From Flavisolibacter ginsengisoli DSM 18119 (GTDB lineage: Bacteria > Bacteroidota > Bacteroidia > Chitinophagales > Chitinophagaceae), in assembly GCF_900129295.1 (NCBI RefSeq), contig NZ_FQUU01000001.1:124001-188000 (forward strand): a DNA stretch of 64,000 nucleotides. Direction: 5' to 3'. The translations under genes and the position numbers were made by a program. The first letter of the stretch is position 1. Each line of letters opens with the position of its first letter. Shown in pieces: positions 15,812-59,969 of the stretch. The notes beneath the pieces are model-generated. The model was not told the DNA's origin. It saw only the letters and a program-made list of their open reading frames with translations, and did no database searches.

Positions 15812-15888
15812 AGATGCTGTGAAGTTGATCTAACGAAAGTTATAGCAAAGAAACGAACAGGAAAGGTGCAATCGAGTGCGCAAGATCA

Positions 15889-16920: not shown

Positions 16921-16976
16921 ATCAGGAATCACAATTTACACAAAAGAAAAACAGGCTAGCCTGGCAAATTATTATG

Positions 16977-20689: not shown

Positions 20690-20721
20690 GAAATTTTATT
20701 TTGTTAATGCCGGGGCTCACA

Positions 20722-21921: not shown

Positions 21922-21957
21922 TGCGATATGGTTAATATATCCTTTTAAAAGCAGGAA

Positions 21958-24237: not shown

Positions 24238-24374
24238 GACCCTTTTATTTTTTTGTATTGAATCAGAATTGTTCATAAAACGCATTTAAGTTACGCACTA
24301 TCAAGAGGATGTATGAAACGGATCCGAGTGTTTCCATAGAGAGCCATAAACTTCTCAATGAATTATGGCGTATT

Positions 24375-25574: not shown

Positions 25575-25616
25575 AAATAATCAGGTTCCTGATTTGCCAA
25601 TGACCTTAAACATGTT

Positions 25617-26831: not shown

Positions 26832-26872
26832 ATGCTTATTTTTTTCAGCCTTAGGCTGTTTCAAATTCATAG

Positions 26873-28702: not shown

Positions 28703-28738
28703 TTAGTACTTCTATTAGTTCATGTATAGTGCAAGCCA

Positions 28739-29977: not shown

Positions 29978-29984
29978 AAACTCC

Positions 29985-32351: not shown

Positions 32352-32400
32352 CACCTGCTGTATTATTTCACCCTTACGGACCAATGAAAAGAAATGGATT

Positions 32401-32443
32401 AAAAAAAACTGGTTCATTTACAATTAACATTGTAATGAACCAG
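32401..32443 (-). terminator. Terminator/attenuator between surface binding protein and enzymes
   Basis: On the minus strand CTGGTTCATTACAAT pairs with ATTGTAAATGAACCAG (15 bp, one bulged base, loop GTTA), followed immediately by eight T (plus-strand A run 32401-32408). It is 28 bp beyond the stop of the surface glycan-binding protein gene and 50 bp before the GH5-GH26 start. It would keep susC-susD-SGBP transcripts abundant relative to the enzyme genes downstream, with partial read-through. Confidence 0.85.
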
Positions 32444-35163: not shown

Positions 35164-35182
35164 TGTCTAGTTTTTGCAGTGA

Positions 35183-44159: not shown

Positions 44160-44903
44160 TTATAATCTTTTAATTTTAATATTCCTGAACCACACGTCTG
44201 CACCGTGGTCCTGCAATGAAATACGTCCTTTTTTGAATGTTCCGAAATCAGGCATGGTTGCAAACTTGCTCCCGGCTATTAACTTCCTCCATGCATCATC
44301 CCACAAAGTGGTTGAAATGACATGTTCATTATTAAGGTAAAGATCCAGTTTGCCATGATCTGCAATGATCTCTACAGCATTCCATTCACCTGCGGGCTTT
44401 ACGGAATTTTTACTGACAGGAATAAGGTCGTATAAGGATCCGGCACTTGTAAGCGGAGACTTTCCATCAGGATGGCCTACATTGTCCACCACCTGCATTT
44501 CAGGACCGGTTTCCCATGGATATTTATATTTTGCAGTATCCTCTTTCACGTAAAACATGATACCACTATTGCCTCCTTTGGATATCTTCCAGTCAAGTTT
44601 TAAATGAAAGTTCTCATACTCTTTATCTGTAACAATATCTCCACCATTCTTTGTCTGCCAATCGCTTTTTACTGATGCATCAAGATGCAGGGCACTATCT
44701 TCCATTTTCCAGGCCTTTCCCAGGCTATCTTTTCCGTAACTATGCCATCCTGATGAGGTAACACCATCAAACAGCGATTCCCATTCAGCATCTTTCTGGG
44801 TAATGGCGGTTGATTTTGCATCTTTCCGGCCAGTATCAGAAGAATTACAGGCAGATAACATGGTGAAGGCAACTGCCATTGGTAAAAGAATTCTCTTAAT
44901 CAT
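44160..44903 (-). CDS. DUF1080 (3-keto-disaccharide hydrolase-like) lipoprotein
   Basis: A 247-residue lipoprotein (lipobox LSAC, C19) with a single concanavalin-like DUF1080 domain: EWESLFDGVTSSGWHSYGK, LKLDWKISKGGNSGIMFYV, GPEMQVVDN, GEWNAVEIIADHGKLDLYLNNEHV and FKKGRISLQDHGADVWFRNIKIK. The family is now called 3-keto-disaccharide hydrolase after work on Bacteroides members that cleave 3-keto-glycosides. It is transcribed with a GMC oxidoreductase, which could supply a 3-keto sugar, and precedes GH3 by 2 bp. Activity on a specific glycoside is inferred. Confidence 0.85.
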   Translation of the reverse strand: MIKRILLPMAVAFTMLSACNSSDTGRKDAKSTAITQKDAEWESLFDGVTSSGWHSYGKDSLGKAWKMEDSALHLDASVKSDWQTKNGGDIVTDKEYENFHLKLDWKISKGGNSGIMFYVKEDTAKYKYPWETGPEMQVVDNVGHPDGKSPLTSAGSLYDLIPVSKNSVKPAGEWNAVEIIADHGKLDLYLNNEHVISTTLWDDAWRKLIAGSKFATMPDFGTFKKGRISLQDHGADVWFRNIKIKRL

Positions 44904-44918
44904 ATGAATGAATGTATT

Positions 44919-46697
44919 TTATAGATTTCCTTTCTTCATTTCGCTCACTGCAAAATTGGCTGCTCTTGCGGTCAGGGCCATGTATAATAACGAAGGACTT
45001 TGATTGCCTGTACTTGTCATACAGGCACCGTCTGTTACAAATACATTCTGGCAATGATGCATCTGGTTATGCTTGTTTAACAAAGATGTCTTAGGGTCTT
45101 TGCCCATGCGACAACCTCCCATTTCATGGATATCAAGGCCGGGAGCCTGGTGGTTATCATATTGATTGATATTCTTTACACCCGCCTTCTCCAGCATTTC
45201 TGCACTTTGTTGCAGAAAATCCTTGATCATCTTTTCATCATTGTCATCGTAATCCACAGACATTACCAGTAATGGAATTCCCCATTGGTCTTTCTGATCC
45301 TTACTCAGTCTTACATGATTTGTTTCCTTAGGAATGGTTTCACCCTGCATGTACATATAGGTACCCCACCCACCCGGTTCCGACATGGCATCCTTATATG
45401 CACCACCAATGGTCTCTGGCAATGTTTCTTCGTTTACTGACCCCCGGTATGCCCCCATGAATGTGGTAAAGCCCCCTACATAATCCATATCATGCTTATA
45501 CAGGTTGCGGTAATTAGCTAAAATGGGCTCCGTGGGGTTTTTACCATAGAAATATTTATCCTCCATGCCCTCCAATTGTCCATTTACAGATGCCCGGTAG
45601 TTATGGTGAGCTACAAACTTTCCTAAAAGACCACTATCGTTACCCAATCCATTAGGAAATCTTGTTGAAGTAGAATTCAAAAGTACAAGGTTGCTGTTCA
45701 AGGCAGAAGCGTTCACAAATATCACCCTGGCAAAGAAGTCCGTTGATTCCTTTGTATTGCTATCTATTATACGAACGCCAACAGCTTTCTGTTTTTTCTC
45801 ATCGTATATAATTGAATGCACCACAGAAAACGGGCGTACCGTTAATTTCCCTGTGGCTTTTGCCCACGGAATTGTAGAAGAAACCGAACTGAAATATCCA
45901 CCGAACGGACAACCTCTCATGCATAAATTCCTGGCCTGGCACTTGGCCCTCCCCTGTTTATAATGTACTTCCGTAGGGGCTGTAAGATGTGCCCAGCGTG
46001 CATGAACCAGGTGCCTGTCTTTATAATTACTACTGACAGACTTTTGTATTTTATCTTCAGCACAATTGAAATCAAATGGAGGCATAAACTCTCCATCTGG
46101 CATTGCTTCTATACCATCCCTGGTGCCACATACCCCGATGAACTTCTCCACATGAGAATACCATGGCGCTATTTCCTGGTAATTGATAGGCCATTCAATG
46201 CCATAGCCCAAACGGGCACCCGAAGTAAACTCATTTTCACTCCAGCGTTGGCAGGCCCTCCCCCAGGTTAATGATTTCCCACCTACCTGGTAACCCCTGA
46301 TCCAATCAAAAGGTTTTTCCTGTATATAGGGATGGTCTTTATCCTTAATGAAGAAATGTGCTGTATCTTCTCCAAATCCTGCTGCCTTACTGATCAATGG
46401 ATTTTCCTGTAAGAATTCCTTTGTCATACGTCCGCGATGGACAAATTCCCATGGAGCTTTTGTGGCTGTAGGATAATCTTTATTATGCTCAACATTTCTA
46501 CCTCTTTCGAGAACCAGTGTTTTTAAACCATGGTCACACAATTCCTTGGCAGCCCATCCCCCACTGATTCCGGAACCGATTACTATGGCATCATAACTAT
46601 TTTGCTGGTTGCCTTTTGAGGAGATATTTATAGATAAAGAATCACCGGGCATAAGATGGATATTTAATGATTGGGATTGGTTTTGGAAGGTAAACAT
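44919..46697 (-). CDS. GMC-family FAD oxidoreductase
   Basis: A 592-residue GMC oxidoreductase: FAD-binding YDAIVIGSGISGGWAAKELCDHG (GxGxxGG at 41-47), RGYQVGGKSLTWGRACQRW, CMRGCPFGGYFSS with a Cys cluster, and the C-terminal catalytic region HEMGGCRMG...TGNQSPSLLYMALTARAA. Bacteroidota homologues are glucose or glycoside dehydrogenases acting on C3, with an electron-acceptor partner. A separate small subunit is not seen here. An ATG at 46652 (MPGDSLSIN) is an alternative start. It heads a leftward unit and is divergent from a Gfo/Idh/MocA gene, a pairing that fits a C3-oxidation pathway. Confidence 0.9.
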   Translation of the reverse strand: MFTFQNQSQSLNIHLMPGDSLSINISSKGNQQNSYDAIVIGSGISGGWAAKELCDHGLKTLVLERGRNVEHNKDYPTATKAPWEFVHRGRMTKEFLQENPLISKAAGFGEDTAHFFIKDKDHPYIQEKPFDWIRGYQVGGKSLTWGRACQRWSENEFTSGARLGYGIEWPINYQEIAPWYSHVEKFIGVCGTRDGIEAMPDGEFMPPFDFNCAEDKIQKSVSSNYKDRHLVHARWAHLTAPTEVHYKQGRAKCQARNLCMRGCPFGGYFSSVSSTIPWAKATGKLTVRPFSVVHSIIYDEKKQKAVGVRIIDSNTKESTDFFARVIFVNASALNSNLVLLNSTSTRFPNGLGNDSGLLGKFVAHHNYRASVNGQLEGMEDKYFYGKNPTEPILANYRNLYKHDMDYVGGFTTFMGAYRGSVNEETLPETIGGAYKDAMSEPGGWGTYMYMQGETIPKETNHVRLSKDQKDQWGIPLLVMSVDYDDNDEKMIKDFLQQSAEMLEKAGVKNINQYDNHQAPGLDIHEMGGCRMGKDPKTSLLNKHNQMHHCQNVFVTDGACMTSTGNQSPSLLYMALTARAANFAVSEMKKGNL

Positions 46698-46772
46698 TTT
46701 TGATTGTGCAAGTGCTGATTTTTCTATTAATACGAAATGCCTTTATTTTATCTTCTCACACAATCTTTAATT

Positions 46773-47867
46773 ATGCCTCCAATTAAAATTGCTATACTGG
46801 GAGCAGGTTTCATTAGTGAAATTCACTGTGAAAGCTACCATCGCTTTGTTCCTAATGCTGAAGTTGTTGCGGTTTACACACGCAATGCTGAAAAGGCGCA
46901 ATCGTTTGCACAAAAACACAATATAGCTCAATGGTTTGACGACCTTGATGCCATAATAAAACTTTCAGGTGCTGATGTGATAGATATATGCCTGCCCAAT
47001 TTTTTACATGCTGAGGCTACACTGAAGGCGGCGGCTGCAGGTAAACACATTATTATTGAAAAACCCCTCGCTGTAACACTGGAGGAAGCTGATGCCATGA
47101 TCAGCGCCTGTAATAAAGCAGGTGTTAAATTAATGTATGCCGAGGAACTATGCTTTGCTCCCAAATATGAAAGGGTCAGGCAAATGGTAAATGAAGGAGC
47201 TATAGGAGATATTTATATGCTGAAGCAATCTGAAAAACATTCCGGGCCACACTCTGACTGGTTTTATGATATCAACCTTTCAGGTGGGGGTGTTTTAATG
47301 GATATGGGATGCCATGGCATTGCATGGTTCAGGTGGATGCTAAAAAATGCAAAGGCAAAAACTGTTTATGCCACCATGTCTACCGTGTATCATAAACAAC
47401 GTACAAAAGCCGAAGATAATTCAGTAGTAATCATTGAATTTGAAAATGGCGTAACGGGTGTAGTAGAAAACAGTTGGGCTAAACACGGAGGCATGGACGA
47501 CCGCAGCGAAGTATATGGTACTGGTGGTGTTGTCTATGCTGATTTATTTATGGGTAATGCTGCAATCGCCTATAGCAAGAATGGTTATGGGTATGCCATG
47601 GAAAAAGCAGATACCACTGTTGGCTGGACCTTTACAATTTTTGAAGAAGCTTTCAACCAGGGTTATCCGCAGGAATTAAAACACTTTATTGACTGCGTTG
47701 AAAATGATAAGGAACCGCTGGTTTCCGGAGAAGACGGGAGGGCCGTCCTGGAGATCATCTATGCTGCCTATGCTTCTGCAGCACAGGGAAAAAAGATAGC
47801 ATTACCGTTCTCACCTAATGTAAAAAAACCTATTGATCTTTGGCTGGAGGCAGCTCCTGCACAATAA
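46773..47867 (+). CDS. Gfo/Idh/MocA-family oxidoreductase
   Basis: About 364 residues from the ATG at 46773 (MPPIKIAILGAGF). The Rossmann motif GAGFISEIH is followed by EKPLAVTLEEADAM, the family hallmark with the catalytic Lys, and a C-terminal alpha/beta domain with MDMGCHGIAWFRW. It is NAD(P)-dependent on a sugar or inositol. The frame extends to 46737, but that start lies in a poorly conserved stretch. It begins a rightward unit with NagB-like and ROK genes (15-bp gap), divergent from the GMC oxidoreductase. Confidence 0.9.
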   Translation: MPPIKIAILGAGFISEIHCESYHRFVPNAEVVAVYTRNAEKAQSFAQKHNIAQWFDDLDAIIKLSGADVIDICLPNFLHAEATLKAAAAGKHIIIEKPLAVTLEEADAMISACNKAGVKLMYAEELCFAPKYERVRQMVNEGAIGDIYMLKQSEKHSGPHSDWFYDINLSGGGVLMDMGCHGIAWFRWMLKNAKAKTVYATMSTVYHKQRTKAEDNSVVIIEFENGVTGVVENSWAKHGGMDDRSEVYGTGGVVYADLFMGNAAIAYSKNGYGYAMEKADTTVGWTFTIFEEAFNQGYPQELKHFIDCVENDKEPLVSGEDGRAVLEIIYAAYASAAQGKKIALPFSPNVKKPIDLWLEAAPAQ

Positions 47868-47882
47868 ACAACAACATTTATA

Positions 47883-48617
47883 ATGAATATCGTCATCAAT
47901 GAAAGCTATAAAGCTATGTCTGAAAAGGCTGCTACTGACTTGATCAATCTAATGGAGCATTCAGCGTCTAAGCTGGTTTGTCTTGCTTCAGGAGATACAC
48001 CATCCGGATTATTTACAGAATTGGTGACCAGGCAAAAGAATGGCAGCATAAATATAAACCAATGGAAGTTTGTTGGGCTTGATGAATGGGGAGGAATGAA
48101 TGGTGCTGACGAGGGTAGCTGCAGGTATCATATCAATAAACAATTCTTTACTCCCCTGCAGATTCCAGAAAACAACATCTGTTTTTTTGACGGCCGTGCC
48201 AACCTGTTAGATGAATGCCGACGCACAGAGGAGTTTATTAAAAAACACAATGGAATAGATGTTGTGATACTTGGGTTAGGATTAAATGGACATGTAGGCA
48301 TGAATGAGCCGGGGGCATCCATAATGGAGCATTCTCATGTGGCTGCAATAGATGAAGAAACACAGCGTGTAGGTCAAAAGTATTTTACTTCACCCCATGA
48401 CATTTCACAGGGTATTACACTAGGCCTGGGTAATATTTTAGAAGCCAGGCATGTTATTCTTCTGGTAAGTGGTGCCCACAAAGCAAATATTGTTAAATGC
48501 ATTATTGAAGAAGAACCCAATGATAAAATACCAGCAAGCCTTTTACAATCGCACCCTTCTTTGACCATTTATCTTGATAAGGAAGCAGCTCAACTTTTGA
48601 ATAAACCTGCCATATGA
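47883..48617 (+). CDS. nagB: Glucosamine-6-phosphate deaminase-like protein
   Basis: A 244-residue NagB/6-phosphogluconolactonase-fold enzyme. The markers are CLASGDTPSGLFTELV (phosphate-binding loop), FVGLDEWGG and the active-site block GLGLNGHVGMNEPG with His and Glu. The NGH spelling, where some enzymes have DGH, is common in Gram-positive NagB, so activity is plausible. It would turn glucosamine-6-phosphate into fructose-6-phosphate plus ammonia. It overlaps the ROK kinase by 4 bp, so the pair probably processes an amino sugar or hexose made by the neighbouring loci. Confidence 0.82.
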   Translation: MNIVINESYKAMSEKAATDLINLMEHSASKLVCLASGDTPSGLFTELVTRQKNGSININQWKFVGLDEWGGMNGADEGSCRYHINKQFFTPLQIPENNICFFDGRANLLDECRRTEEFIKKHNGIDVVILGLGLNGHVGMNEPGASIMEHSHVAAIDEETQRVGQKYFTSPHDISQGITLGLGNILEARHVILLVSGAHKANIVKCIIEEEPNDKIPASLLQSHPSLTIYLDKEAAQLLNKPAI

Positions 48618-49480
48618 AGCAGGGTTCAATCATTGGATTAGACCTTGGAGGTACTAATATTCGCGGAGGTCGTATAGAAGATACGGCTCTGGAAGGTGTT
48701 CTTTCAAAAAAGCTCACTGCTCATCATGATGCTAACGAAGTTTTACAACAACTTTTTGACATTACAGACGCGCTTATTACACCTCCAACAACAGCAATAG
48801 GCATTGGTGTACCAGGGTTAGTGGACCTTAAGACAGGAACTGTTTTTGATGTGGTGAATATTCCCTCCTGGAAAAAGATCGCCTTACAGCAGATCATGGA
48901 AGAACGATATCACCTTCCTGTTCTTATTAACAATGATGCAAATTGTTTTGCATTGGGCGAATATTATTTTGGCAAGGGCCGGGGCGCAGGTTCTATGGTC
49001 GGACTTACCATAGGTACGGGACTTGGTTCGGGATTAATACTCAATAAACAATTATTTACAGGTAGCCATTGTGGTGCAGGTGAATTCGGTATGATACCAT
49101 ATATGGACCAATGCATTGAATATTACGCAAGTGGACAGTTCTTCAGGAATGTTTACGGAATAGAAGGTGAAGTTGCTTTCCAGAGAGCCCTCAATGGTGT
49201 CACCGAAGCCATTGATATATATGCCGTATTCGGAACACACCTTGGGAATGCTATCAAGACCATATTGTTTGCTTTGGACGTGGAACTCATCATATTGGGC
49301 GGATCTGTAAGTAAAGCATTTACGCTTTTCGAAAAAACAATGTGGAACTCTATTATGGAATTCCCCTATAAAGAGACCGCCAATAGTTTAAAGATCGAAG
49401 TTTCAGATTTAGAAAACAGTGGTATAGTTGGAGCAGCGGCCTTACATTATAACCTCAATGTTATAGAGCATTCTTCTTAA
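48614..49480 (+). CDS. ROK-family sugar kinase without canonical zinc motif
   Basis: A 288-residue ROK kinase: ATP loop IGLDLGGTNIRGG (8-20), catalytic NNDAN (D108) and GLTIGTGLGSGLI (131-143). In typical ROK proteins ExGH is followed by the zinc site CxCGxxGC. Here the sequence is GAGEFGMIPYMDQCIEYYASG: Met160 replaces the metal-ligand His and only one Cys (C167) remains. It therefore probably works without structural zinc. It overlaps NagB by 4 bp and converges on the GH97 gene 9 bp away. Substrate: glucose, mannose or an amino sugar, not decidable here. Confidence 0.85.
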   Translation: MKQGSIIGLDLGGTNIRGGRIEDTALEGVLSKKLTAHHDANEVLQQLFDITDALITPPTTAIGIGVPGLVDLKTGTVFDVVNIPSWKKIALQQIMEERYHLPVLINNDANCFALGEYYFGKGRGAGSMVGLTIGTGLGSGLILNKQLFTGSHCGAGEFGMIPYMDQCIEYYASGQFFRNVYGIEGEVAFQRALNGVTEAIDIYAVFGTHLGNAIKTILFALDVELIILGGSVSKAFTLFEKTMWNSIMEFPYKETANSLKIEVSDLENSGIVGAAALHYNLNVIEHSS

Positions 49481-49489
49481 GCCTTGTAT

Positions 49490-51469
49490 TTACTGTTTAT
49501 CTATCCTGGTCAATTTTAATACAAATCCACCACCCGGTGCCATGAAAACTTTCAAAGGCTGGCCTTTTTGCCATTTAAAATTTTCAATGATATAATCTGA
49601 AGGATACTTATCTGCATTAATACCATCCCTGCACAACACGGCATTATACGTACCAGGATCGATCCTATCAGTGGCAAGTTCTATTTCTCTAGGGGTCCAG
49701 TTTGTCATACCACCTATATACCAATCCTTTCCATTTTTCCTTGCTGTAACAATAAACTCACCGATGCTTCCTTCCAATATATTTGTTTCATCCCAGGTAG
49801 TGGGAAAACTTCCCAGCAATTGCATGAACTCAGGTTCCATTAATCCCTGGGAGGGATTACCGGAAAATACCTGCAAAGGACTGTCGTATACAATAAACAT
49901 AGCCATTTGATGACAACGGGTGCCCTGGCTCATTACTTTTTGATTGATAGCCCTGAATTGTTCGCGGGTTGCATTATCCAATATACCTGGCTCATAATCT
50001 AACGAACCAGCCAGCATCCTGGTAAATGGTAATGTGACATCATAACCTGGGGTAGGCTTGTCGCTCCAGATATTATATTCCGATCCTAATACGCCTTCCC
50101 TGGTGATAGCATTTGGCCAGGTACGGTTAAATCCCTTTGGAGCGAAAGCTCCATGATACATGATCATTATATGGTGGTCGGCACATGCTTTGGCAATGCG
50201 GTGATAAAAATTCACCATTAGCTGATCATCCCTGTCCATAAAATCTGTCATGATAAAATCAACTCCCCATTTATTGAACTGTTTCAAGGCACTATCCAGT
50301 TGGCGATTAAGTGTAGCGGCAAGTGTCCACATGCTTATTTTCACGCCCCTGTTCCTGGCATAGGTCGATAAGGCATCCATATTGATATCAGGGTTGATAT
50401 CAAACAAGTCGTTATTATTGCTCCACCCTGCATCCATCATAATGCGATCCAATCCAAACTTCTTGGCAAAGTCAATATAGTATTTATAAGTGGCCGTATT
50501 CACACCGCTTTTGAAAGGAATATTGAACAGGTTGATACCAATGATCCATTCATCAGTGCACTTGCCCGGATGTATCCAGGTTAGATCTTTTAAAGAAGTA
50601 GGAGACCCCAGCCGGTAAACCAGGTCATTGCCCGGTAGATCCTTATCATTCCTGGCTAAGATCAGCACTCTCCAGGGAAACGCCCTGGCACCGCGTGTCC
50701 TGGCAATATACCCTGCCCTTTTAGTAACCAAATACTGGCTGTATAATCCTGATTTGAGCTTTTCTTCCAGTGGATAAGGAGCAAAAACACCTTTTAGCGA
50801 CCTGCCACCTGTGCCACTAATGAACATTCCCGGGTAATCAACCAAAGCTGATTCTGTAATCCCCAGCTTAACCTCATTGCCTGTACCAGTTAAAACAGGG
50901 TTGTATGCCATAGCTGAATCCGTAAGGCTGTCAATGGCTTTAAGCTGGTAGAGTTCTTCAAAACTAGTATGGTACCTGTCTGATCCTTCCCTTGGTGACA
51001 AAAGCGGTAGTCTTACTTTTTTGCCTGCTGGAAATACAAATTCTGCTAGTTCATTGATTACTGTTATTGAATCTCTGAACGATGTTGCCCACCTATAAGC
51101 TACACCATCATTATAAACCCTGAATAGTAAGCTGTAAGGCAGCTTAAAATCTATTCTTAATTCAGTATAATGATCAGGAATTTCTTTTCTTTTCTCTGGC
51201 ACTGGTGAAATGATCACCTCATTAACAACATGCAAAAAGGACCTGCGTATTTGCAGGTCCCCGGTAAGATCTTTTTTATTGGCCAACAGTAAATTTATTG
51301 CTGATGGTTCAAGTATATATTTTCCTTCAAACTTAACCGAATACTCAATTTTATTAGATAGTTGTATGTTTACTTCAATCCTTTTATCAGGTGAGCTCAC
51401 CATCAAACTATCTTTTGCACTACCCTGGAAGTATAACAGGCAAGAAAAGAAGAATACTAAAGTCCTCAT
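49490..51469 (-). CDS. GH97 glycoside hydrolase, retaining alpha-galactosidase type
   Basis: A 659-residue secreted GH97 enzyme: N-terminal beta-supersandwich, (beta/alpha)8 barrel from about 300, and C-terminal beta domain. The candidate nucleophile is D409 in FIMTDFMDRDDQ and the acid/base E464 in GVLGSEYN. They are 55 residues apart, the same spacing I recall for Asp415/Glu470 of the characterised retaining alpha-galactosidase BtGH97b. The inverting SusB-type enzymes lack that Asp, so this should be the retaining kind. It is the last gene of the second polysaccharide locus and follows DUF5107. Confidence 0.9.
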   Translation of the reverse strand: MRTLVFFFSCLLYFQGSAKDSLMVSSPDKRIEVNIQLSNKIEYSVKFEGKYILEPSAINLLLANKKDLTGDLQIRRSFLHVVNEVIISPVPEKRKEIPDHYTELRIDFKLPYSLLFRVYNDGVAYRWATSFRDSITVINELAEFVFPAGKKVRLPLLSPREGSDRYHTSFEELYQLKAIDSLTDSAMAYNPVLTGTGNEVKLGITESALVDYPGMFISGTGGRSLKGVFAPYPLEEKLKSGLYSQYLVTKRAGYIARTRGARAFPWRVLILARNDKDLPGNDLVYRLGSPTSLKDLTWIHPGKCTDEWIIGINLFNIPFKSGVNTATYKYYIDFAKKFGLDRIMMDAGWSNNNDLFDINPDINMDALSTYARNRGVKISMWTLAATLNRQLDSALKQFNKWGVDFIMTDFMDRDDQLMVNFYHRIAKACADHHIMIMYHGAFAPKGFNRTWPNAITREGVLGSEYNIWSDKPTPGYDVTLPFTRMLAGSLDYEPGILDNATREQFRAINQKVMSQGTRCHQMAMFIVYDSPLQVFSGNPSQGLMEPEFMQLLGSFPTTWDETNILEGSIGEFIVTARKNGKDWYIGGMTNWTPREIELATDRIDPGTYNAVLCRDGINADKYPSDYIIENFKWQKGQPLKVFMAPGGGFVLKLTRIDKQ

Positions 51470-51489
51470 ATAACAAAATACAAAACTTA

Positions 51490-53298
51490 TTATTCATATT
51501 CCCGGTAAGCTCCAAAAGTCGCCAGCCTGTCCTCCCCCAGTTGGGTTGGAATATTTTCGCAATCCAGGTTTAGTTTTTTACACAGCTGCAACCAAAGCCC
51601 GGTACGTGTATAAGTTTGATGTACTTTCTGAAATTCGGTAGAAAGCAATAAATCTTTTGCTGTTGCATATTCGCCTTTATCTATCAGTAACTGTATCCTT
51701 CTTTCAATAACCCATTCATCTTTCAGGGCAGCTACTGCAGATAACCATTTTTCTCTTTCAGGAATGGTTTGCTGTCCTATGGCTCTTAATAATTTATCTC
51801 TTTCCACTATCACCTGAGGGTGTATTTGCAACCATTTCTCCTGTATGCTTTCAAAGGCCTTCTGCGCACCCGTTAAATCGCCGTTGATTTTAAGCAAACG
51901 TGCTAAAAGCACTTTGGCAACACCTTGCTTTGATAAGTTTAATTGTTGAATGGCAGCATCTTTTTCACCTCTTCCTGCTAACCAGGCTCCATAATAATAT
52001 TTCCACAGTTCATTGTTCTCTCCTTTGCTCTTATTTATGGCATAGGTAAAGGCATTGCCCAAATCTTCCATGCCTGAAGGAGCCCATAGATTCTTATCGA
52101 TACCTGGTGGCAAGGGTACGGCTGTTCTTTGCTGATATGCTGTACGAAGAGCATTCCAAATGCTTACTTCTTCATTCCTTGCCCATCCAAATAATGGTAT
52201 TTCTTTCAATGGTCTTAACTGTTGCAGGGGAACTTTGAGTTGATAAATATTTGCTGGCGCATCCGTTGGCATCCAATATTCTATATGCCATCTTGTTTGG
52301 CCAGGTTCCATTTGAAGCTTTATAGACTGGTCACCTATTGGTCCCCCCTGAATCTCAAGGTAGGTCTGGTGTTTGGCTGTACTTAACACGGACCAGGCAC
52401 TGTCACTACCCACCCCATAGCTCCATAATTTTATTCCTGAAGCAATCTTATCATCCGCTATGTGGTACAATCCGGTTCCATAGGATGGTGTATAGGCACC
52501 AAAAGCATTAACATCCTTTGTTTTCCAGAAGTAACCGGTCATTTCCTTAATATCTCCTTCTACTCTTGGTCCCTGTTTCACCCAATCAATGGTATCAATA
52601 TGTGATGCGTGAGATAAGACCCTTCCCTTTGGAAAATCAAATCTTGTGTCAGGTGCAGAAGGCATGGCCGCATTAGACCATGACATCCATGGATAGGCAT
52701 TCTTACCAGGGTTATGAAATACCACTCTTTCTGTAAGGTATTTATCATCGGGTCCCAATGAATACTCTACTGACCATTGCATACCAAAGCGCAATTCCCT
52801 TTCACCGCAGGTAACATACGTACGGTTGTTAATTTTATCTACCCTATAATTTACTTTCTCGTTCTGAGAAGGGGAATGAGAAATAGGAAAACTTACTTCA
52901 ATACCTCCCGCCACAAAATAAAACCTGGGTAGTATCCTTGTATACCTGATAACATCCGGCACATATAGCACCTCTTTGCCTGAAGGCTTCTGGATCATGG
53001 AAAATACCTTTCCACCCAGGTCAGGGCAGATAGTTACTTTCATATGTTCATTTTCCAATTCCACAAACCTGTAACTTTTAGGCACAGGCCTGTTAGATGT
53101 TTCAGAATAACTCTGGTAGGGATACACACCATTGGGATCAAACGCTGTTGGTATAGGGCCAGAGGGTGTTAAAAGATGCGTAAGCACCACCTGTTCATAA
53201 ACCTTGTAAGTAACAGGCTTTGGTCCCGGTAAGGCAAACAGTTTTTGAAAACTGAAACTACACACCAATACCAATAAGATAGTTTTAAAAGAATGCAT
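51490..53298 (-). CDS. DUF5107-domain secreted protein with helical repeats
   Basis: A 602-residue exported protein (signal peptide to about residue 22, LFA). The first ~380 residues are a beta-rich, mutarotase-like DUF5107 domain (VELENEHMKVTICPDLGGKVFSM; GGIEVSFPISHSPSQNEKVNYRVD). The last ~220 are helical repeats of TPR type (ELWKYYYGAWLAGRGEKDAAIQQL). DUF5107 proteins are frequent in Bacteroidota polysaccharide loci and have no established activity that I can name with confidence. Its place between DUF4091 and GH97 suggests a catalytic or sugar-handling role. Confidence 0.75.
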   Translation of the reverse strand: MHSFKTILLVLVCSFSFQKLFALPGPKPVTYKVYEQVVLTHLLTPSGPIPTAFDPNGVYPYQSYSETSNRPVPKSYRFVELENEHMKVTICPDLGGKVFSMIQKPSGKEVLYVPDVIRYTRILPRFYFVAGGIEVSFPISHSPSQNEKVNYRVDKINNRTYVTCGERELRFGMQWSVEYSLGPDDKYLTERVVFHNPGKNAYPWMSWSNAAMPSAPDTRFDFPKGRVLSHASHIDTIDWVKQGPRVEGDIKEMTGYFWKTKDVNAFGAYTPSYGTGLYHIADDKIASGIKLWSYGVGSDSAWSVLSTAKHQTYLEIQGGPIGDQSIKLQMEPGQTRWHIEYWMPTDAPANIYQLKVPLQQLRPLKEIPLFGWARNEEVSIWNALRTAYQQRTAVPLPPGIDKNLWAPSGMEDLGNAFTYAINKSKGENNELWKYYYGAWLAGRGEKDAAIQQLNLSKQGVAKVLLARLLKINGDLTGAQKAFESIQEKWLQIHPQVIVERDKLLRAIGQQTIPEREKWLSAVAALKDEWVIERRIQLLIDKGEYATAKDLLLSTEFQKVHQTYTRTGLWLQLCKKLNLDCENIPTQLGEDRLATFGAYREYE

Positions 53299-53303
53299 AG
53301 AAT

Positions 53304-55127
53304 TTAAAAAGGTTTTGTGGCCAGCTTTTCTGATAATTGGTCTACAAGATCACGGCCTTTTTGTACATCTGCCGTAATTTTCTTAGAGTCAAAATCCTTT
53401 TCGGTTAAAAAAGTTTGCAGGTGATTGTTAAGCTGGGCTATCAAATTCTTAACAGCAGGATCTTTTGAAACAGCAGCTTTTTCTTTTATGATGCGTAACT
53501 TTTCAAAATCCACAATCCCCTCTCTTAGTTTTTCAAAACGGATACAGCTATTGCCACCGGGGTAAACCAGGAAGCAGTCACCGGCAGGCCATATCTCATG
53601 CCTGGCATCACGCATAGGATCATTAGGCCATGCATCATAGGCCCATCTCAAAAATCCATCATAATTATGCGCAGCGGTGTACCAACTGATCCATCTTCCT
53701 TCCACCGGAGGTGAAAAAACAAAATTGTTTGGCACAGGAGGGTTACAGCAAACATAATAAGTTGTTGTTTGTCCTCTTTTAGACCTTTGATTCACCACAT
53801 CAACATTTGATTCATTGCCATAGAGAAAGCAATAATCGTCAAGTAAAGTATCTAGCTCTTTATGCCAGTTGCCAGCATAGGTAATCTTCCATTTCTTTGA
53901 ATGCTCCTTGATCACTTTAATGGCAGCCAGGGTTTGCTCCATTTCATTCTCATTTATACCGAGGTAAGTTTTTTCAAACCACCCTTTCTGGTCAAGATGC
54001 TTTCTCAGATCCGTGAGGAATATATTCCAGAAAGACTTGAACTCCTTTGATTCCGGAGGCCAGGAAACGTACACATAATTACCTGTTTTTTCGTCCATAT
54101 AGCGGAACCTGAAACCCCATGGTACAGGAGTGTAAATAGTAATGGCTTTATCTATTCCAAGGTCCATACACATTTGAACATATTCATCAAATATGTTGTA
54201 ATCGAATTTCCATGCACCATCCTTTTTTTTGACCCACTCAATCATTGAACCCTCGATCATATAGGAATTATCAGCCCAGGGGGAATGTACGCCATAGGTA
54301 GTGATGAATTTCCCACCAGCATCAGCATATAATTTTAAATGCTTCTTCAATAATATTTTATGTTCTTCTGACCATGGCTTCACATTGTTCTTCCATGCAA
54401 TCACCCATGGGTTTTGCCATAGATCCAGGCGGTGTTTCCACTCAGTGGGCTTTGGCAATAGCTGGTTTTGAACATTTAATTTCAGGTTAAGGGTAGTGGA
54501 ATATTTTTCAGACTTCACTTCCACAGTTCCCTTGTAAACTCCTGCTGCAGTTCCCGCTGGAATGTCTATGGAAATCCAAACCGGCCTGGTAGTTTTACCT
54601 GGAAGCTCAAACCTGTCAAAATTTTCAAATCTGTCAGGCATCAGGTACAGGTCTTTATAGGGACTGGCACCACAGGTAACGTCTTTAGCACCATATGGAT
54701 AGTTGCTAACAACATAGTGCACCATGTTAACCTGGAAATTGTTTTTGGATATGGATTGTCCACGGCTATTCTTCAAATCATTTAATACAAATCGAACCTG
54801 GTTTAAAGTATCTGTTGACCAAATAAGTACCTGGGAGTTGATGCGTTCTCCTTTCCAGCCTGTGGCTTGCCAGGAAACAGGTTCACTTGGCAATTCAGGT
54901 ACTTCACTTCTGAAATAGAGCTGGTCAGTTGATCCAAATGCAACATGCATACCTTTTTCCTGTGCTTTCCAGGCTGCAGTATTCACTGTAGTATCAAAAT
55001 GATATTCATCCTGGTAGTGACCTGGAGGTACGGGAATTTTAGTAAGATCCATCTGCCCCTTATACACCTGTCCAAAGGAAACAAAAGCAAGGTTTAGTAA
55101 ACCAACGATAAATAAGGCTTTCTTCAT
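53304..55127 (-). CDS. DUF4091/GH123-like secreted protein
   Basis: A 607-residue exported protein (signal peptide to SFGQ). An N-terminal beta-sandwich (to about 225) precedes a TIM-barrel-like domain resembling DUF4091 and GH123: DLWQNPWVIAWKNNVKPWSEEH, MDLGIDKAITIYTPVPWG and the barrel-strand end YLGINENEMEQ. In GH123 N-acetylgalactosaminidases the equivalent strand ends in an Asp-Glu pair; here Asn-Glu (N392-E393 or N394-E395) is seen. Catalysis on an N-acetyl sugar is uncertain. It is the first enzyme gene after susD and a hairpin, with the DUF5107 gene 5 bp downstream. Confidence 0.7.
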   Translation of the reverse strand: MKKALFIVGLLNLAFVSFGQVYKGQMDLTKIPVPPGHYQDEYHFDTTVNTAAWKAQEKGMHVAFGSTDQLYFRSEVPELPSEPVSWQATGWKGERINSQVLIWSTDTLNQVRFVLNDLKNSRGQSISKNNFQVNMVHYVVSNYPYGAKDVTCGASPYKDLYLMPDRFENFDRFELPGKTTRPVWISIDIPAGTAAGVYKGTVEVKSEKYSTTLNLKLNVQNQLLPKPTEWKHRLDLWQNPWVIAWKNNVKPWSEEHKILLKKHLKLYADAGGKFITTYGVHSPWADNSYMIEGSMIEWVKKKDGAWKFDYNIFDEYVQMCMDLGIDKAITIYTPVPWGFRFRYMDEKTGNYVYVSWPPESKEFKSFWNIFLTDLRKHLDQKGWFEKTYLGINENEMEQTLAAIKVIKEHSKKWKITYAGNWHKELDTLLDDYCFLYGNESNVDVVNQRSKRGQTTTYYVCCNPPVPNNFVFSPPVEGRWISWYTAAHNYDGFLRWAYDAWPNDPMRDARHEIWPAGDCFLVYPGGNSCIRFEKLREGIVDFEKLRIIKEKAAVSKDPAVKNLIAQLNNHLQTFLTEKDFDSKKITADVQKGRDLVDQLSEKLATKPF

Positions 55128-55152
55128 AATATATTTTCTTTAAAAAGGAATA

Positions 55153-55177
55153 AGGATAGGCCACAGTAGCCTATCCT
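55153..55177 (-). terminator. Hairpin between susD and enzyme genes, locus 2
   Basis: GGATAGGC (minus strand 55176-55169) pairs with GCCTATCC (55161-55154), extended by one A-T pair, with a 7-nt loop and a downstream TTATTCCTTTTT. It stands between the susD stop and the DUF4091 start, the same relative place as the clear terminator in the mannan locus. It may be an attenuator or a transcript-stabilising 3' end. Confidence 0.65.
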
Positions 55178-55209
55178 CTATCTTATTAACTACAACTATT
55201 AAGATCTGC

Positions 55210-56883
55210 TTACCAACCTGGGTTCTGCTCTAATGTACCATGAGACAATTGCACTTGTTGCAATGGTATAGGATCAAGGTAATGTTTTGGCTGGAAACTG
55301 CGTGCAGATGCAGGTTCCGCAATGATAAATCCATTGGCATCAACCTGTATGTCTACTCCAATCTGCAGATCAGGATATTTGGTCTGGTATTCTGTGCCTA
55401 CAAATTTAACTCCTTTTAAGGCCTGCGGCATAATGGTTTCAGCGGTCTTCCAGCGTCGCAAGTCTTCACGCCTGAAACCTTCGAAAGCCAGTTCCACAGT
55501 TCTTTCTCTCCTGATCTCATCAAGCATATTCAACCCATTGGCATTTACTAATGCATTCGTCAAATGAGGCATAACAGCCCTATCCCGGATCAGGTTAATA
55601 GTACGATCCAAATCACCATCAGATATAGAACCATTCTTTTCATACAGTGCTTCTGCTAGTATGAGCAACACTTCTGCATAACGGAATTCCTTGAAATCGT
55701 ATTCGCCCCGGAACTGTGCAGCATCTATTGTTTCATCAAGGAACTTACGAAGCATATATCCTGTGCGTGTGGCATTACTTCCATTGAAACCCGGGAAGGT
55801 AGGCTGCCAGATTCCACCTTCAAAAAATATGGAGGATCCTGGTTCAATAAATGTCATTGACATTCTTGGGTCCCTGTCCTGGAACTCGCTCGTTAATGTA
55901 CCATAACCTTTAAACAAAGGTGATTTAGTTATAGGAAGACCATCCTTTGCCAGGTATTGGTCAGCAAGGTTCTTAGTTGGTACCATAAAGTTGAACCACA
56001 ATTCCCTGGTCCAGTTATGTGTTGCCCTGTTGGCATAATATCTTTTAGCCAGAATTACCTCTTTGCTGTCATCACCTTGCAGAATAAACAGGTATTTATA
56101 ACTGTCTGCACCCTTATCTGTATATAATGCATATTCACCTGAAGCAATCATTTTTTCTGATGCATCAATTGCAAGCGTGAGGTATTTTGCAGCATCTCCC
56201 TGTCCATGGTATTTTGCCCATGTACCCTGGTATAATGCAGCCCTTGCCTTTAGAGCTAATGCAGCTCCCTGTGTTACCCTTCCCAACTCATCTCCGCTTA
56301 ACTGGCTTTGTAAAGGCAACCTGGAAATGGCATTATCCAGGTCACTGATGATAAAGTCAATGATATCAGATTGAGAAGATTTGGCAGTGTATAACTCCGG
56401 CGAGGTTACATCCAACACTTTTTCAAGCTTGGGAACACCACCATAATTCTTCACCAGGTTCCAGTAATTGTATGCCCTGAAAAATAAAGCTTCACCTTTC
56501 CAGCGGTCAATTCCTGCACCCAATGTAGATTCCTCTGCCTTTTGCAGCAGGTAGTTGGTAGCCCTGATGTATTTATAGGAGTTATCCCACAATGGTGCAT
56601 TTGCCTGTGGCAAATAGGAACCATTGCTTTTGCTCCTGTTATCAACATTAGCCGCAGCATCGGTGCCGGAACCATAGGCTATATCAGAATTATTGTCTGT
56701 GTAATTATGTGCCCCCTGCAAACCATTATAAAAGTCATTGGTGAACAGCTTGAAATCATCTGGAGTTTTCCAATATGAGGCATCAGAGATCTTATCCAGA
56801 GGATTAAGATCCAGGTTTTTTTTACACCCTGTGGATATTGCCACAAGAAGTACAAAAAAGGATAAATATTTAAAGCGGGTCAT
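55210..56883 (-). CDS. SusD-like lipoprotein, locus 2
   Basis: A 557-residue SusD/RagB protein (lipobox TGC, C20; CKKNLDLNPLDKISDASYW). Its family features are FFRAYNYWNLVKNYGGVPKLEK, RYAEVLLILAEALYEKNG, RRERTVELAFEGFRREDLRRWK and the closing DPIPLQQVQLSHGTLEQNPGW. It pairs with the SusC gene 11 bp upstream. Ligand unknown; downstream GH97 and DUF4091 genes suggest a galactose- or N-acetylhexosamine-containing glycan. Confidence 0.93.
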   Translation of the reverse strand: MTRFKYLSFFVLLVAISTGCKKNLDLNPLDKISDASYWKTPDDFKLFTNDFYNGLQGAHNYTDNNSDIAYGSGTDAAANVDNRSKSNGSYLPQANAPLWDNSYKYIRATNYLLQKAEESTLGAGIDRWKGEALFFRAYNYWNLVKNYGGVPKLEKVLDVTSPELYTAKSSQSDIIDFIISDLDNAISRLPLQSQLSGDELGRVTQGAALALKARAALYQGTWAKYHGQGDAAKYLTLAIDASEKMIASGEYALYTDKGADSYKYLFILQGDDSKEVILAKRYYANRATHNWTRELWFNFMVPTKNLADQYLAKDGLPITKSPLFKGYGTLTSEFQDRDPRMSMTFIEPGSSIFFEGGIWQPTFPGFNGSNATRTGYMLRKFLDETIDAAQFRGEYDFKEFRYAEVLLILAEALYEKNGSISDGDLDRTINLIRDRAVMPHLTNALVNANGLNMLDEIRRERTVELAFEGFRREDLRRWKTAETIMPQALKGVKFVGTEYQTKYPDLQIGVDIQVDANGFIIAEPASARSFQPKHYLDPIPLQQVQLSHGTLEQNPGW

Positions 56884-56894
56884 TTCAATAATTT

Positions 56895-59800
56895 TTAAAA
56901 GGTGATATCAATACCAAAAGAATAATAACGCTGGAACGGATAGTTACCACCCCAATCTGCAGATTCAGTATCCCATCCTCCCAGCACATGATGCTTTTCC
57001 CAGAGGTCTTGTCCGCTTACATAGATCCTTGCATTGGTAAGCGCCACCTTGCGGATAAGATTTGCCGGTAATGAATACCCTAGCTGTAGATTTTTTAAGC
57101 GTACATAAGCGGCATTGATCTTTTGCATTGTCGAAGGCTGGTAGTTCCACCAACGGATATCCCCGAATGACAAGCGTGGATATTCCGCATTTGGCCTGTC
57201 TTCATTCCATGTTTTACCATAATAAAATGCAGGCGGCTGTCTCCACCAATCACTCCATGGCATGGAATACTCACCCACCCTGAATAAAGTGCGCTTACCT
57301 ACACCCTGGAAAAAAACACCGAAGTCAAAGCCTTTATATTTTGCACCAAGGTTAATGCCATAGCTATAACGGGGAGCTGTGTTTCCAACATAGGTTACGT
57401 CTCCATCCGTGCCTGCCTTATCACTATACAGGCTTATTTTGCCATCACCATTCAAATCCTTGAAGCGGGCATCACCAATGCCAATTCCTGAAGGAACACC
57501 TTCAAGTTTTTTGTAATCATCCAATTCTTTCTGGGTTCTGATGATACCATCAAAAACGTAAGCGAAATAACTGTTAATAGGATAACCTTCACGCGTATTG
57601 TTCATTCCAAGCGTATAGGTATTGGCTCCACCAAGATTTACCAATTTATTCTCTGCGTCACTCAAAATTACTCTTGCGGAGTATTGAAAGTCACCTACAT
57701 TATCCTTCCAGCCCAGGGAAGTCTCAAAACCCCATGTTTTTAATTCACCTGCATTGGAAGATGGAGGTGTGGCTCCCAGCATGCTTGGATAGGTTACATT
57801 GATCAACATATCATTGTTGATCTTATTAAAATAATCAAATGAGAAGGTTATCTTATTTCTTAATAAGGTTGCATCAACACCCACATTCTTGTTTACTACA
57901 GTTTCCCATGTCCGGTTATAGGCAACCATTCCCTGTAGTGTAGCGGCCGGATCTTGTCTGCCTGCACCAAATGGATACACACCACCCAGGTTGATCTGTT
58001 GTATAAAATCATACAATCCAATTCCGTCCTGGTTTCCTACTTTGCCATAAGAACCCCTGAGCTTTAGTTCATTGATCCAGCTAATGTCCTGCATAAATGA
58101 TTCCTTAGATAAACGCCAGCCCACAGAAACACCAGGGAACATTCCCCATCTTTTATCAGATAATTGAAAGCGTGAACTTCCGTCAAAACGAAGATTCGCT
58201 TCCAGCATGTACTTATCATCAAGTACATAACCCAACCGTGAAAAATAAGAACCAATAGCCCAATGATTAGCACCGCCCTTGGAATACATATCACCAACCC
58301 CAAGGTTAAGATCCCATACATTATCACTAACGATATTATACCTGCCCGCAGTTGTGTTTTTTAATTCATTCTTTTCATAGGACCCACCTACCATGAAATC
58401 AATGTCATGACGACCTGCAAACTTTTTATTGTATTGCAGGTAGCTGTTATAATTCTGGTAGTTTACTGTTCCATTTTGCTCTTCCAGCCAGCTTTGACCT
58501 GGATTAGCTATGCTGTAATAAGCCAACGTTCCGTCCCACTGATACAGCGGAACAGGTTTACCCATATCTGTGCTGTTCTTTGCTGTATAGTTGGTTCCAG
58601 CCTGCACATTCAACTTAAGTCCACTTACGATATCGGCTATCAATTTAAAATTGGCATTGATGTTCCTGGTATTGTAAGAAGATGTTGGAGCTTCTTTAGC
58701 AAAAGCAACTGCATTGCTCCAGCCTCCCTGTGCAAAGAATTTTCCATCTTTTGTATACACCGGGTGGTTGGGCATTCCAAAAATAGCCTCGCCTATAACC
58801 CAGTTACCTACACCTGCAATATCAGATCTGTGCTGGTGATCAAATGAAAGTTTAGATTCAAGCCTTATACCTTTGGTAAGATTGTAATCATAGTTCATTC
58901 GCAGGTTATACAGTTTATTATTATCATTGGCATATTTCACTACACCACGCTGATCACTGTAACTTCCAGATAAGTAATAGCTTGAATTAGGGCTGCTACC
59001 GGACACACTGATGGCATGTCTTTGTTGCTTACCATTCTCCAGTAATTCTTTGATCCAGTCCGTTGAAGTAAAGAACAACATCCATCCGCCATATATAGGG
59101 TGAGGTATGGGGTTGGGATCATTATTCAGGATCTTTTGGAGCAGCTCAGGCGTGTACATTGGAGCCGCTCCGTTGTGAATATTGGCCTCATTCTCCATTA
59201 TAGCAAACTGGTAAGTTGTTGGACTTTCCATCATGCCACTCATTTTTGTAATGGCGAAATTGTTATTATAGGTAATCTTTGTGCTACCGCTTTTACCTCT
59301 TTTAGTAGTCACAAGGAAAACGCCACCCGCACCTCTGGCACCATAGATTGAAGCCTGTGCATCTTTCAATACAGAAATGGATTCAATATCAGAAGGGTTC
59401 AGTAAGTTAAGGTTGCCCTCAATTCCATCTATCAACACCAGCGGTGAAGCTGCGCCATTGATAGAAGAAGCACCCCTGACATTTAAATTAAAATCTTCCG
59501 AGCCAGGCTGGCCGGAATAACGTTGAATATAAGTACCGGGTACTTCACCCTGCAATGCTGCAAATGCATTGGTAATAGGTCTTGATTGAAATACTTCTGC
59601 GTTCACAGTAGATACAGAACCTGTTAAGAATTGTTTTCTACGCGTTCCATAACCCACAACAACTACATCTTCCAGTGCCCTGGCATTACCGCTTAGTGTA
59701 ACAGAATAATAAGACTGGTCTCCCACTACCACTTCCTGTGGTGCAAACCCGGTATAAGTAAATACCAGTGTATCCCTTGAATTGGCACGAATACTAAAAT

Positions 59801-59969
59801 TGCCCAGTACATCAGTGGTAACTCCTCTTGTAGTATGCTTCAGAATCACAGACACACCCTGTAGTGGCCCTTTCTCATCCCTGACCGTACCTTTTATTTC
59901 ACTCTGCGCAAAGGCAGCATGACCATAAAGCAATAGCAGGAATAGAAACGCAGTAACTGCTTTTTTCAT
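56895..59969 (-). CDS. SusC/RagA TonB-dependent transporter, locus 2
   Basis: A 1024-residue outer-membrane transporter: signal peptide (to AAFAQ), CarboxypepD-regulatory-like domain (IKGTVRDEKGPLQGVSVILKH), plug (DVVVVGYGTRRKQFLTGSVST; NVRGASSINGAASPLVLIDG) and beta-barrel ending YSFGIDITF. It begins the second locus. Two LacI-type operators lie 225-275 bp upstream of its start, which distinguishes it from the AraC-linked mannan locus and ties it to the MFS/LacI region at 15-19 kb. Confidence 0.95.
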   Translation of the reverse strand: MKKAVTAFLFLLLLYGHAAFAQSEIKGTVRDEKGPLQGVSVILKHTTRGVTTDVLGNFSIRANSRDTLVFTYTGFAPQEVVVGDQSYYSVTLSGNARALEDVVVVGYGTRRKQFLTGSVSTVNAEVFQSRPITNAFAALQGEVPGTYIQRYSGQPGSEDFNLNVRGASSINGAASPLVLIDGIEGNLNLLNPSDIESISVLKDAQASIYGARGAGGVFLVTTKRGKSGSTKITYNNNFAITKMSGMMESPTTYQFAIMENEANIHNGAAPMYTPELLQKILNNDPNPIPHPIYGGWMLFFTSTDWIKELLENGKQQRHAISVSGSSPNSSYYLSGSYSDQRGVVKYANDNNKLYNLRMNYDYNLTKGIRLESKLSFDHQHRSDIAGVGNWVIGEAIFGMPNHPVYTKDGKFFAQGGWSNAVAFAKEAPTSSYNTRNINANFKLIADIVSGLKLNVQAGTNYTAKNSTDMGKPVPLYQWDGTLAYYSIANPGQSWLEEQNGTVNYQNYNSYLQYNKKFAGRHDIDFMVGGSYEKNELKNTTAGRYNIVSDNVWDLNLGVGDMYSKGGANHWAIGSYFSRLGYVLDDKYMLEANLRFDGSSRFQLSDKRWGMFPGVSVGWRLSKESFMQDISWINELKLRGSYGKVGNQDGIGLYDFIQQINLGGVYPFGAGRQDPAATLQGMVAYNRTWETVVNKNVGVDATLLRNKITFSFDYFNKINNDMLINVTYPSMLGATPPSSNAGELKTWGFETSLGWKDNVGDFQYSARVILSDAENKLVNLGGANTYTLGMNNTREGYPINSYFAYVFDGIIRTQKELDDYKKLEGVPSGIGIGDARFKDLNGDGKISLYSDKAGTDGDVTYVGNTAPRYSYGINLGAKYKGFDFGVFFQGVGKRTLFRVGEYSMPWSDWWRQPPAFYYGKTWNEDRPNAEYPRLSFGDIRWWNYQPSTMQKINAAYVRLKNLQLGYSLPANLIRKVALTNARIYVSGQDLWEKHHVLGGWDTESADWGGNYPFQRYYSFGIDITF

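Follow-up and report, generated by a model that had tools for sequence, protein, structure and literature searches.

The stretch of the Flavisolibacter ginsengisoli DSM 18119 genome analysed here (64,000 nucleotides of contig NZ_FQUU01000001.1, hereafter the window) carries a polysaccharide utilisation locus of the Sus type, in which a protein of glycoside hydrolase family 123 (GH123) has Asn-Glu where characterised members have a catalytic Asp-Glu pair. Genes for SusC, SusD, this GH123 protein, a DUF5107 protein and a GH97 enzyme form one run on the minus strand (Table 1), as a first-pass annotation made from the sequence had described; all five open reading frames (ORFs) are intact, and the family matches of the five products score far above the cut-offs. 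SusC and SusD are adjacent, and carbohydrate-active genes run in the same direction. A plus-strand trio (Gfo/Idh/MocA, NagB and ROK) converges on the run, with the meeting point at 49480.

Table 1. Genes of the window considered in this work, with the SusCD run listed first
Feature	Coordinates	Strand	Evidence
SusC TonB-dependent outer-membrane transporter	56895..59969	-	TIGR04056 861 bits, cut-off 368
SusD surface glycan-binding lipoprotein	55210..56883	-	PF07980 (SusD_RagB) 168 bits; SusD-like_3 83 bits; lipobox ..STGC by eye
GH123, Asn-Glu branch, 607 aa	53304..55127	-	PF13320 (GH123_cat) 353 bits, cut-off 23; Glyco_hydro_123_N_2 141 bits
DUF5107 + BDI_1685-like helical C-terminal domain, 602 aa, signal peptide	51490..53298	-	PF17128 324 bits; PF22256 319 bits
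GH97, retaining alpha-galactosidase kind (by kinship)	49490..51469	-	three GH97 domains, 312 (PF10566), 164 and 99 bits
Gfo/Idh/MocA oxidoreductase, opens convergent operon	46737..47867	+	PF01408; best solved relatives 6nor, 6jw6
NagB-type hexosamine-6-phosphate deaminase	47883..48617	+	PF01182 83 bits; glucosamine-6-phosphate deaminase 2bkv 142 bits
ROK sugar kinase	48614..49480	+	PF00480 151 bits
GMC sugar dehydrogenase, nearest solved relative fructose dehydrogenase	44919..46697	-	PF05199; 8k6k 123 bits
DUF1080 3-keto-disaccharide hydrolase	44160..44903	-	PF06439 169 bits; lipobox by eye
GH3 of BglX kind	41914..44157	-	PRK15098 BglX 807 bits, cut-off 666
NahK-like hexosamine kinase (APH fold)	14723..15811	-	PF01636; 4ocj NahK 186 bits, E 1.1e-53
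LacI-type regulator adjoining NahK-like kinase	15889..16932	-	PF00356, PF00532
MFS sugar transporter (GluP/NagP kind), possible monosaccharide importer	17895..19223	+	TIGR01272 378 bits, cut-off 203

The first-pass annotation had regarded DUF4091 as having no clear activity. For the family this does not hold, as PF13320, formerly DUF4091, is GH123 itself, a family with beta-N-acetylgalactosaminidase activity; for the branch to which the window protein belongs it does, as the catalytic Asp is Asn. We rejected the label "DUF4091 of unknown activity" on the basis of the PF13320 score, of the alignment with solved GH123 enzymes and of the predicted fold. Indeed, the model (mean pLDDT 82.9, with residues 285-288 under 50) matches BvGH123 of Bacteroides vulgatus with bound N-acetylgalactosamine (GalNAc; PDB 5L7U) with a Z-score of 38.5 and a root-mean-square deviation (rmsd) of 2.5 over 544 aligned residues at 38% identity. 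The two proteins share the fold over nearly their whole length (456 bits; PDB 5L7R/5L7U/5L7V).

In the alignment with solved enzymes, the motif GINENEM of the window protein lies opposite AMDERPM of BvGH123, so that its catalytic pair is N392-E393. The acid/base Glu of BvGH123 has a counterpart, as do Trp206, 253, 306 and 482 (W237, W284, W337 and W513), whereas Asp361, Arg214, Gln256 and Gly255 are replaced by Asn392, Trp245, Asn287 and Asp286; the Trp numbers are from PMC11087588 and the other BvGH123 numbers were obtained by counting letters in the alignment. Since the Asp-Glu motif is absent, we describe the protein as GH123-fold and as a member of a separate branch, and do not claim exo-beta-N-acetylgalactosaminidase activity as shown. 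In DUF4091 enzymes the Asp stabilises the 2-acetamido group of the substrate and the Glu is the acid/base, and the DE motif is present in 94% of 734 DUF4091 sequences (PMC11087588); the Asn-Glu branch may be among the remaining 6%.

Two sets of relatives were compared. The less biased one was drawn from genomes of the host family, where 58 of 294 matched at E <= 1e-20, and 20 branch loci (including the window) and 20 other loci were read. Identities to the window protein fell into two groups. One comprises 20 loci, the window among them, with the relatives at 58-75%; the other does not exceed 41%, apart from two short fragments (46% and 56%). The nearest relative, at 75%, belongs to the same genus (genome G269). 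Asn-Glu is found in 20/20 family rows picked by identity (at least 55%) versus Asp-Glu in the other 23 rows, among them all 20 other loci read (L067 and L068 are one column off), and chance or alignment error at the motif was rejected on these counts. The second set, the named loci, consists of the best 80 of 188 relatives (79 distinct), found in named genomes by means of an alignment of 15 branch proteins and the branch's own peptide patterns DLWQNPW and LRWAYD[AS]W; 75 of its 79 rows are Asn-Glu and 4 Asp-Glu, which, as the set was gathered by branch patterns, is not a prevalence. Named branch loci occur in Bacteroidota and in metagenome-assembled genomes labelled Acidobacteria, Gemmatimonadetes, Planctomycetes orders, Calditrichaeota and Chloroflexi, although labels outside Bacteroidota may reflect mis-binning; as the scan found the branch outside the window's family, a restriction to that family was rejected. 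Across the phylum, 12 of 395 genomes had a match at E <= 1e-100, four of which are Asn-Glu, and the initial scan of genome contigs with a single-protein query found no relative. The named and family sets share genomes, their loci are related (L083/L152 and L131/L153 look like the same proteins) and flank lengths differ; the Fisher p-values below treat related loci as independent.

Among 110 aligned GH123 rows, 78 are Asn-Glu, 30 are Asp-Glu and two are misaligned at the motif; Glu393 is kept in 108, the others being the two misaligned rows. The 78 and 30 rows were picked by motif, so that positions 392 and 393 are uninformative in that comparison, and independent tests came from an identity sort and a tree. 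For the sort, identity to the window protein was computed without the motif region: the 77 rows that reach 45% were all Asn-Glu, and all 30 Asp-Glu rows lay at 30-41%, with one Asn-Glu row at 40%. In a tree of 101 rows, from which six long or distant rows had been left out, the motif label switches once, with a support of 99; with these six added it switches twice. The ancestral state is not settled by the tree, and we take Asn-Glu to be derived because 94% of DUF4091 sequences have Asp-Glu. The GH123 of locus L097, read apart from the main alignment, has GINEN. A search for an Asn-Glu GH123 variant found no report in the accessible literature, and none was found on GH123 together with Parabacteroides distasonis.

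Other positions covary with the motif. Tyr278 occupies its position in 78/78 Asn-Glu rows versus 1/30 Asp-Glu rows (Ser in 23), His263 in 78/78 versus 2/30 and Tyr417 in 77/78 versus 1/30, while position 394 is Asn or Ser in all 78 Asn-Glu rows and Arg or Lys in 29 of the 30 Asp-Glu rows. The aromatic pocket is largely retained: W237, W284 and Y458 are unchanged in every Asn-Glu row, W337 in 69 and W513 in 74 (3 gaps). Conserved pocket aromatics, combined with conserved changes specific to the branch, fit selection for pocket function rather than decay, and to judge from the alignment the branch appears to have a coherent active site of its own. It is therefore highly improbable, in our opinion, that the Asn-Glu GH123 has lost catalysis and survives as a relic that binds sugar, with DUF5107 as the real enzyme. 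Such an explanation would agree with the near loss of activity that an Asp-to-Asn change causes in other DUF4091 enzymes (PMC11087588) and with the high conservation of DUF5107 (across 37 rows, 175 positions agree in 97% of rows or more), but no aligned row has lost Glu393, and the pocket has kept its aromatics and acquired its own conserved residues.

DUF5107, the product of the next gene, was likewise said to have no clear activity, and this description stands: a structure has been solved, yet we found no function in print. The window protein carries PF17128 followed by PF22256, the same two domains as BDI_1685 of P. distasonis ATCC 8503, the name under which the structure search lists PDB 5CD6; this structure, a mutarotase fold plus a helical domain, was solved without a named function. 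The match to 5CD6 reaches 850 bits at about 61% identity, and the predicted model (pLDDT 83.9) a Z-score of 44.6. The model of the N-terminal domain resembles galactose mutarotases and relatives up to Z 23.1 (3mwx, rmsd 2.9, 252 aligned), the mutarotase fold being confined to this DUF5107 domain, and identity to galactose mutarotases/aldose 1-epimerases is 14% or less in the listed rows. Comparison of the DUF5107 profile with 25 mutarotases in hhalign gave a probability of 0.7% and no reliable match, so that the catalytic His and Glu of GalM are not matched; E315, in a YLEIQ stretch, resembles the C-terminal Glu region of GalM by eye only. DUF5107 might still act as a plain mutarotase; the fold lists show fold and not function. 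Literature matches listed for BDI_1683-1687 and 5CD6 held nothing relevant, and DUF5107 was found in one paper, on MAST protists. PF17128 also matches in the Escherichia coli control genome, in a protein that we take to be YphG, of the uncharacterised yph sugar operon. Separately, the Flavisolibacter relative G269 has a galactose mutarotase homologue (G269:C6:244348-245358) at a distance of about 5 kb from its Asn-Glu GH123.

DUF5107 (at least 50% identity) is linked to GH123 in 7/19 branch loci of the family, whereas none of the 20 loci with other GH123 genes has it. Where the right flank is long enough (65 named loci), it directly follows GH123 in 33. The pair is present in gut Parabacteroides and in soil bacteria. 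In another strain of P. distasonis, a DUF5107 gene encoding a 30-letter stretch of 5CD6 adjoins an Asn-Glu GH123, in a run of ECF-sigma-like, anti-sigma-like, SusC, GH123 and DUF5107 genes (sigma names given by eye from the letters) in which no ORF was recognised as SusD. Remote DUF5107 proteins (26-27%) lie near GH123 genes outside the branch in L052 and L067, and the GH123/DUF5107 partnership may thus be older than the branch.

Comparison of gene neighbourhoods, as the first-pass annotation had suggested, showed that SusC/SusD, DUF5107, NagB, ROK and NahK-like kinase genes recur near the branch in other genomes. SusC relatives (57-77% identity) were seen in 18 named loci, and a SusD relative (at least 55%) immediately precedes GH123 in 19 of the 67 named loci whose left flank is long enough (21/75 in all). 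A NagB gene accompanies the branch in 4/19 family loci versus 0/20 for other GH123 genes (p 0.047) and in 12/76 named branch loci, and ROK in 3/19 versus 0/20 and in 11/76. Gfo/Idh/MocA relatives at 74-82% occur in 7 named loci and an MFS transporter of the TIGR01272 kind in 3/76 named and 2/19 family branch loci. Single rows bring several of these together: in Flavihumibacter soli, SusC, SusD, GH123, DUF5107, GMC, an APH kinase (33%), CBM9, MFS, GH3 and Gfo are co-directional, and a Melioribacter row reads GH123, GH3, NagB, an MFS-looking ORF and ROK. ROK proteins usually have an ExGH motif and a Cys-rich zinc motif. In our alignment the window ROK kinase has EFGM and no Cys-rich motif, and most of those in branch loci have EFGM or EFGI and likewise no Cys-rich motif; such proteins would form a sugar-kinase subgroup.

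The linked amino-sugar genes of the first-pass annotation are present: NagB and ROK adjoin the run, and the N-acetylhexosamine-kinase-like gene lies about 34 kb away in the window. Its product is an APH-fold kinase with NahK (4ocj) as nearest solved relative, and the gene may be assigned to the locus on comparative evidence only: NahK-like kinases (at least 45% identity, within about 10 kb) accompany the branch in 5/19 family and 7/76 named loci, and other GH123 genes in 2/20. Near ordinary GH123 genes they occur in L063, L070 and, at 41%, in L052, and the kinase/LacI pair of the window (14723-16932) has its counterparts in these same three loci; no LacI gene (at least 40% identity) was found near the branch (0/19 family and 0/76 named loci). 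B. thetaiotaomicron has a GalNAc kinase of the APH family, BT4240 (PMC11992087), which is likened here by family. As NahK-like kinases are found near both kinds of GH123, both kinds probably release the same kind of hexosamine. With the GH123 fold and the recurrence of NagB, ROK and NahK-like genes, the suggestion of an amino-sugar-containing glycan is supported, though not proved.

The suggestion that this glycan is alpha-galactosylated fared less well. D409 and E464 of the window GH97 align with the Asp and Glu of BtGH97b (3a24, 476 bits), which we take to be nucleophile and acid/base; all three domains are present, and the 5e1q chain in the same alignment is without the Asp. The equivalog model NF053844 of NCBIfam ("retaining alpha-galactosidase") was not reached, however, at 655 bits against a cut-off of 800, and alpha-galactosidase is for this reason likely by kinship, not assigned. 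The window GH97 may well be an active alpha-galactosidase. Linkage of GH97 of this kind to only 5/76 named and 3/19 family branch loci led us to reject alpha-galactose as a core trait. We consider it unlikely that the locus serves an alpha-Gal/HexNAc oligosaccharide. Characterised GH123 enzymes do act on Gb4 and GA2 (PMC7531118), and the GH97 keeps its catalytic residues and is encoded next to DUF5107 in the same direction, but the low linkage counts and the missed cut-off argue against it, and soil hosts would probably seldom meet globosides.

Other enzymes vary in the same way. GMC (at least 55%) and GH3 (at least 60%) each occur in 12/76 named loci, a close DUF1080 relative in 1/75, and DUF2961 or GDSL in a few others; it seems that the core is shared and that its additional enzymes differ between species. 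For DUF1080, the accessible text of PMC9007349 gave background only.

Taken as a working model, and with less than even confidence, we favour the uptake and breakdown of an oligosaccharide bearing beta-linked N-acetylhexosamine by an Asn-type, substrate-assisted GH123. Endo-A of family GH85 pairs Asn171 with Glu173 in substrate-assisted catalysis; its Asn orients the 2-acetamido group, and the N171A mutant is dead (PMC2646837). Like the window GH123 it holds an Asn and a Glu in a TIM barrel, although it belongs to another family, is endo-acting on N-glycans and has Asn-x-Glu spacing instead of adjacent residues. By analogy, Asn could serve as polarising residue in the branch as well. SusD and SusC would bind and import a small oligosaccharide with beta-linked N-acetylhexosamine, most likely GalNAc, which would be degraded in the periplasm. 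In the window, a lipobox is absent from all three enzymes encoded with SusCD, the GH123 protein having a signal peptide without one, and so no surface enzyme seems needed. A simple signal-peptide pattern marks few proteins as lipoprotein-like, 1/64 among the branch GH123 rows and 2/43 among the DUF5107 rows (20 and 12 are unclear), and thus the core enzymes appear to be mostly periplasmic and the imported glycan is probably small. GH123 would then remove the hexosamine with the help of the 2-acetamido group of the substrate itself, which Asn392 would orient as Asn171 does in Endo-A, with Glu393 as acid/base and Tyr278 and His263 as putative compensating pocket residues. DUF5107 could act on the same glycan, perhaps at the reducing end or on the released sugar, and GH97 and GH3 would finish the remaining alpha- and beta-hexoses in the window locus. 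After import of the amino sugar, the NahK-like or the ROK kinase would phosphorylate it and NagB would deaminate it.

Several observations weigh against this proposal. Mutation of the Asp to Asn or Glu leaves ordinary DUF4091 enzymes with little to no activity, even with 10- to 100-fold more enzyme (PMC11087588). Arg245, found in 26/30 ordinary rows, is left in only 3/78 branch rows, and Gln287 has become Asn in 72/78; the sugar-binding site is therefore altered. The catalytic domain has lost acids at 290, 392 and 463 and gained them at 286, 292, 439 and 498. D286 (73/78, Glu in 2) and E292 (74/78, Asp in 3) come directly after the pocket Trp284 (Trp253 of BvGH123), and D498 is present in 74/75 branch rows versus Asn in 24/30 ordinary rows; by a different mechanism, D286, E292 or D498 could take over from the lost Asp. 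For kinase linkage, the two kinds of GH123 show no significant difference (p 0.235), and it is not special to the branch. DUF5107 accompanies the branch in only 41/76 named loci, and a NagA relative (at least 35% to the genome's own, which is on another contig) is linked in 0/115 loci, which leaves room for a free-amine or non-acetylated sugar. Finally, GH16 is present in six Chitinophagaceae loci, three of them with a window-type GH3, and points to a beta-glucan setting: L076, L079, L081, L084, L088 (Chitinophaga) and L073 combine the Asn-Glu GH123 with GH16 (6/6), a different SusD (5/6) and Gluconate_2-dh3 (4/6), which suggests a beta-glucan-linked variant of the locus.

These data also bear on another explanation, which we find nearly as likely: the Asn-Glu GH123 may have given up 2-acetamido participation and use another mechanism, for example via D286, E292 or D498, to cleave a different beta-glycoside (a free-amine hexosamine, a plain hexoside, or a 3-keto sugar from the linked GMC and Gfo enzymes). 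The substitution does hit the residue that holds the acetamido group (PMC11087588), the arginines at 245 and 394 are lost while the three acids are gained, NagB and ROK are linked without NagA, and GMC with Gluconate_2-dh3 and Gfo recur in some branch loci. However, NahK-like kinases also accompany ordinary GH123 genes, the branch has retained the Trp residues by which BvGH123 holds GalNAc, and the new acids are placed along the chain by alignment. The hexosamine probably shared by both kinds of GH123, together with the Asn/Glu pair of Endo-A, led us to prefer slightly the Asn-type, substrate-assisted reading over a changed substrate or mechanism.

In a wider sense, we put forward with caution that the Asn-Glu branch could be a functionally new GH123 subfamily, which would either have reinvented the Asn polariser of GH85 or have moved the carboxylate to D286, E292 or D498 and the substrate away from beta-GalNAc, and which would be paired with DUF5107, as a mutarotase-fold enzyme of a new catalytic kind, in a two-enzyme system. 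We know of no characterised locus for the glycan of such a system. A residue treated as essential in the accessible GH123 literature is replaced across the branch, in which the acid/base Glu and most of the aromatic pocket are kept. An active branch would show how Asp can give way to Asn in a substrate-assisted glycosidase, a difference that to our knowledge is otherwise known only between families (GH85 being an example), or how such an enzyme moves its carboxylate. For the orphan structure 5CD6 (BDI_1685), it would at the same time provide a partner and a locus in a gut species, along with a class of substrates.

Elsewhere in the window, a separate locus of the mannan type (19292-32417, minus strand) includes two GH26 genes, a GH130-like phosphorylase, a GlcNAc 2-epimerase-like gene, a melibiase, GH3, a SASA esterase and an SSF symporter; upstream of it lie a TIG protein (32471-33532) and two large ORFs (33565-38341). 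One of its products, of 810 aa (29985-32417, minus strand), matches GH26 in the C-terminal half and, weakly, cellulase/GH2-like TIM barrels in the N-terminal half, and possibly holds two catalytic barrels in one chain.

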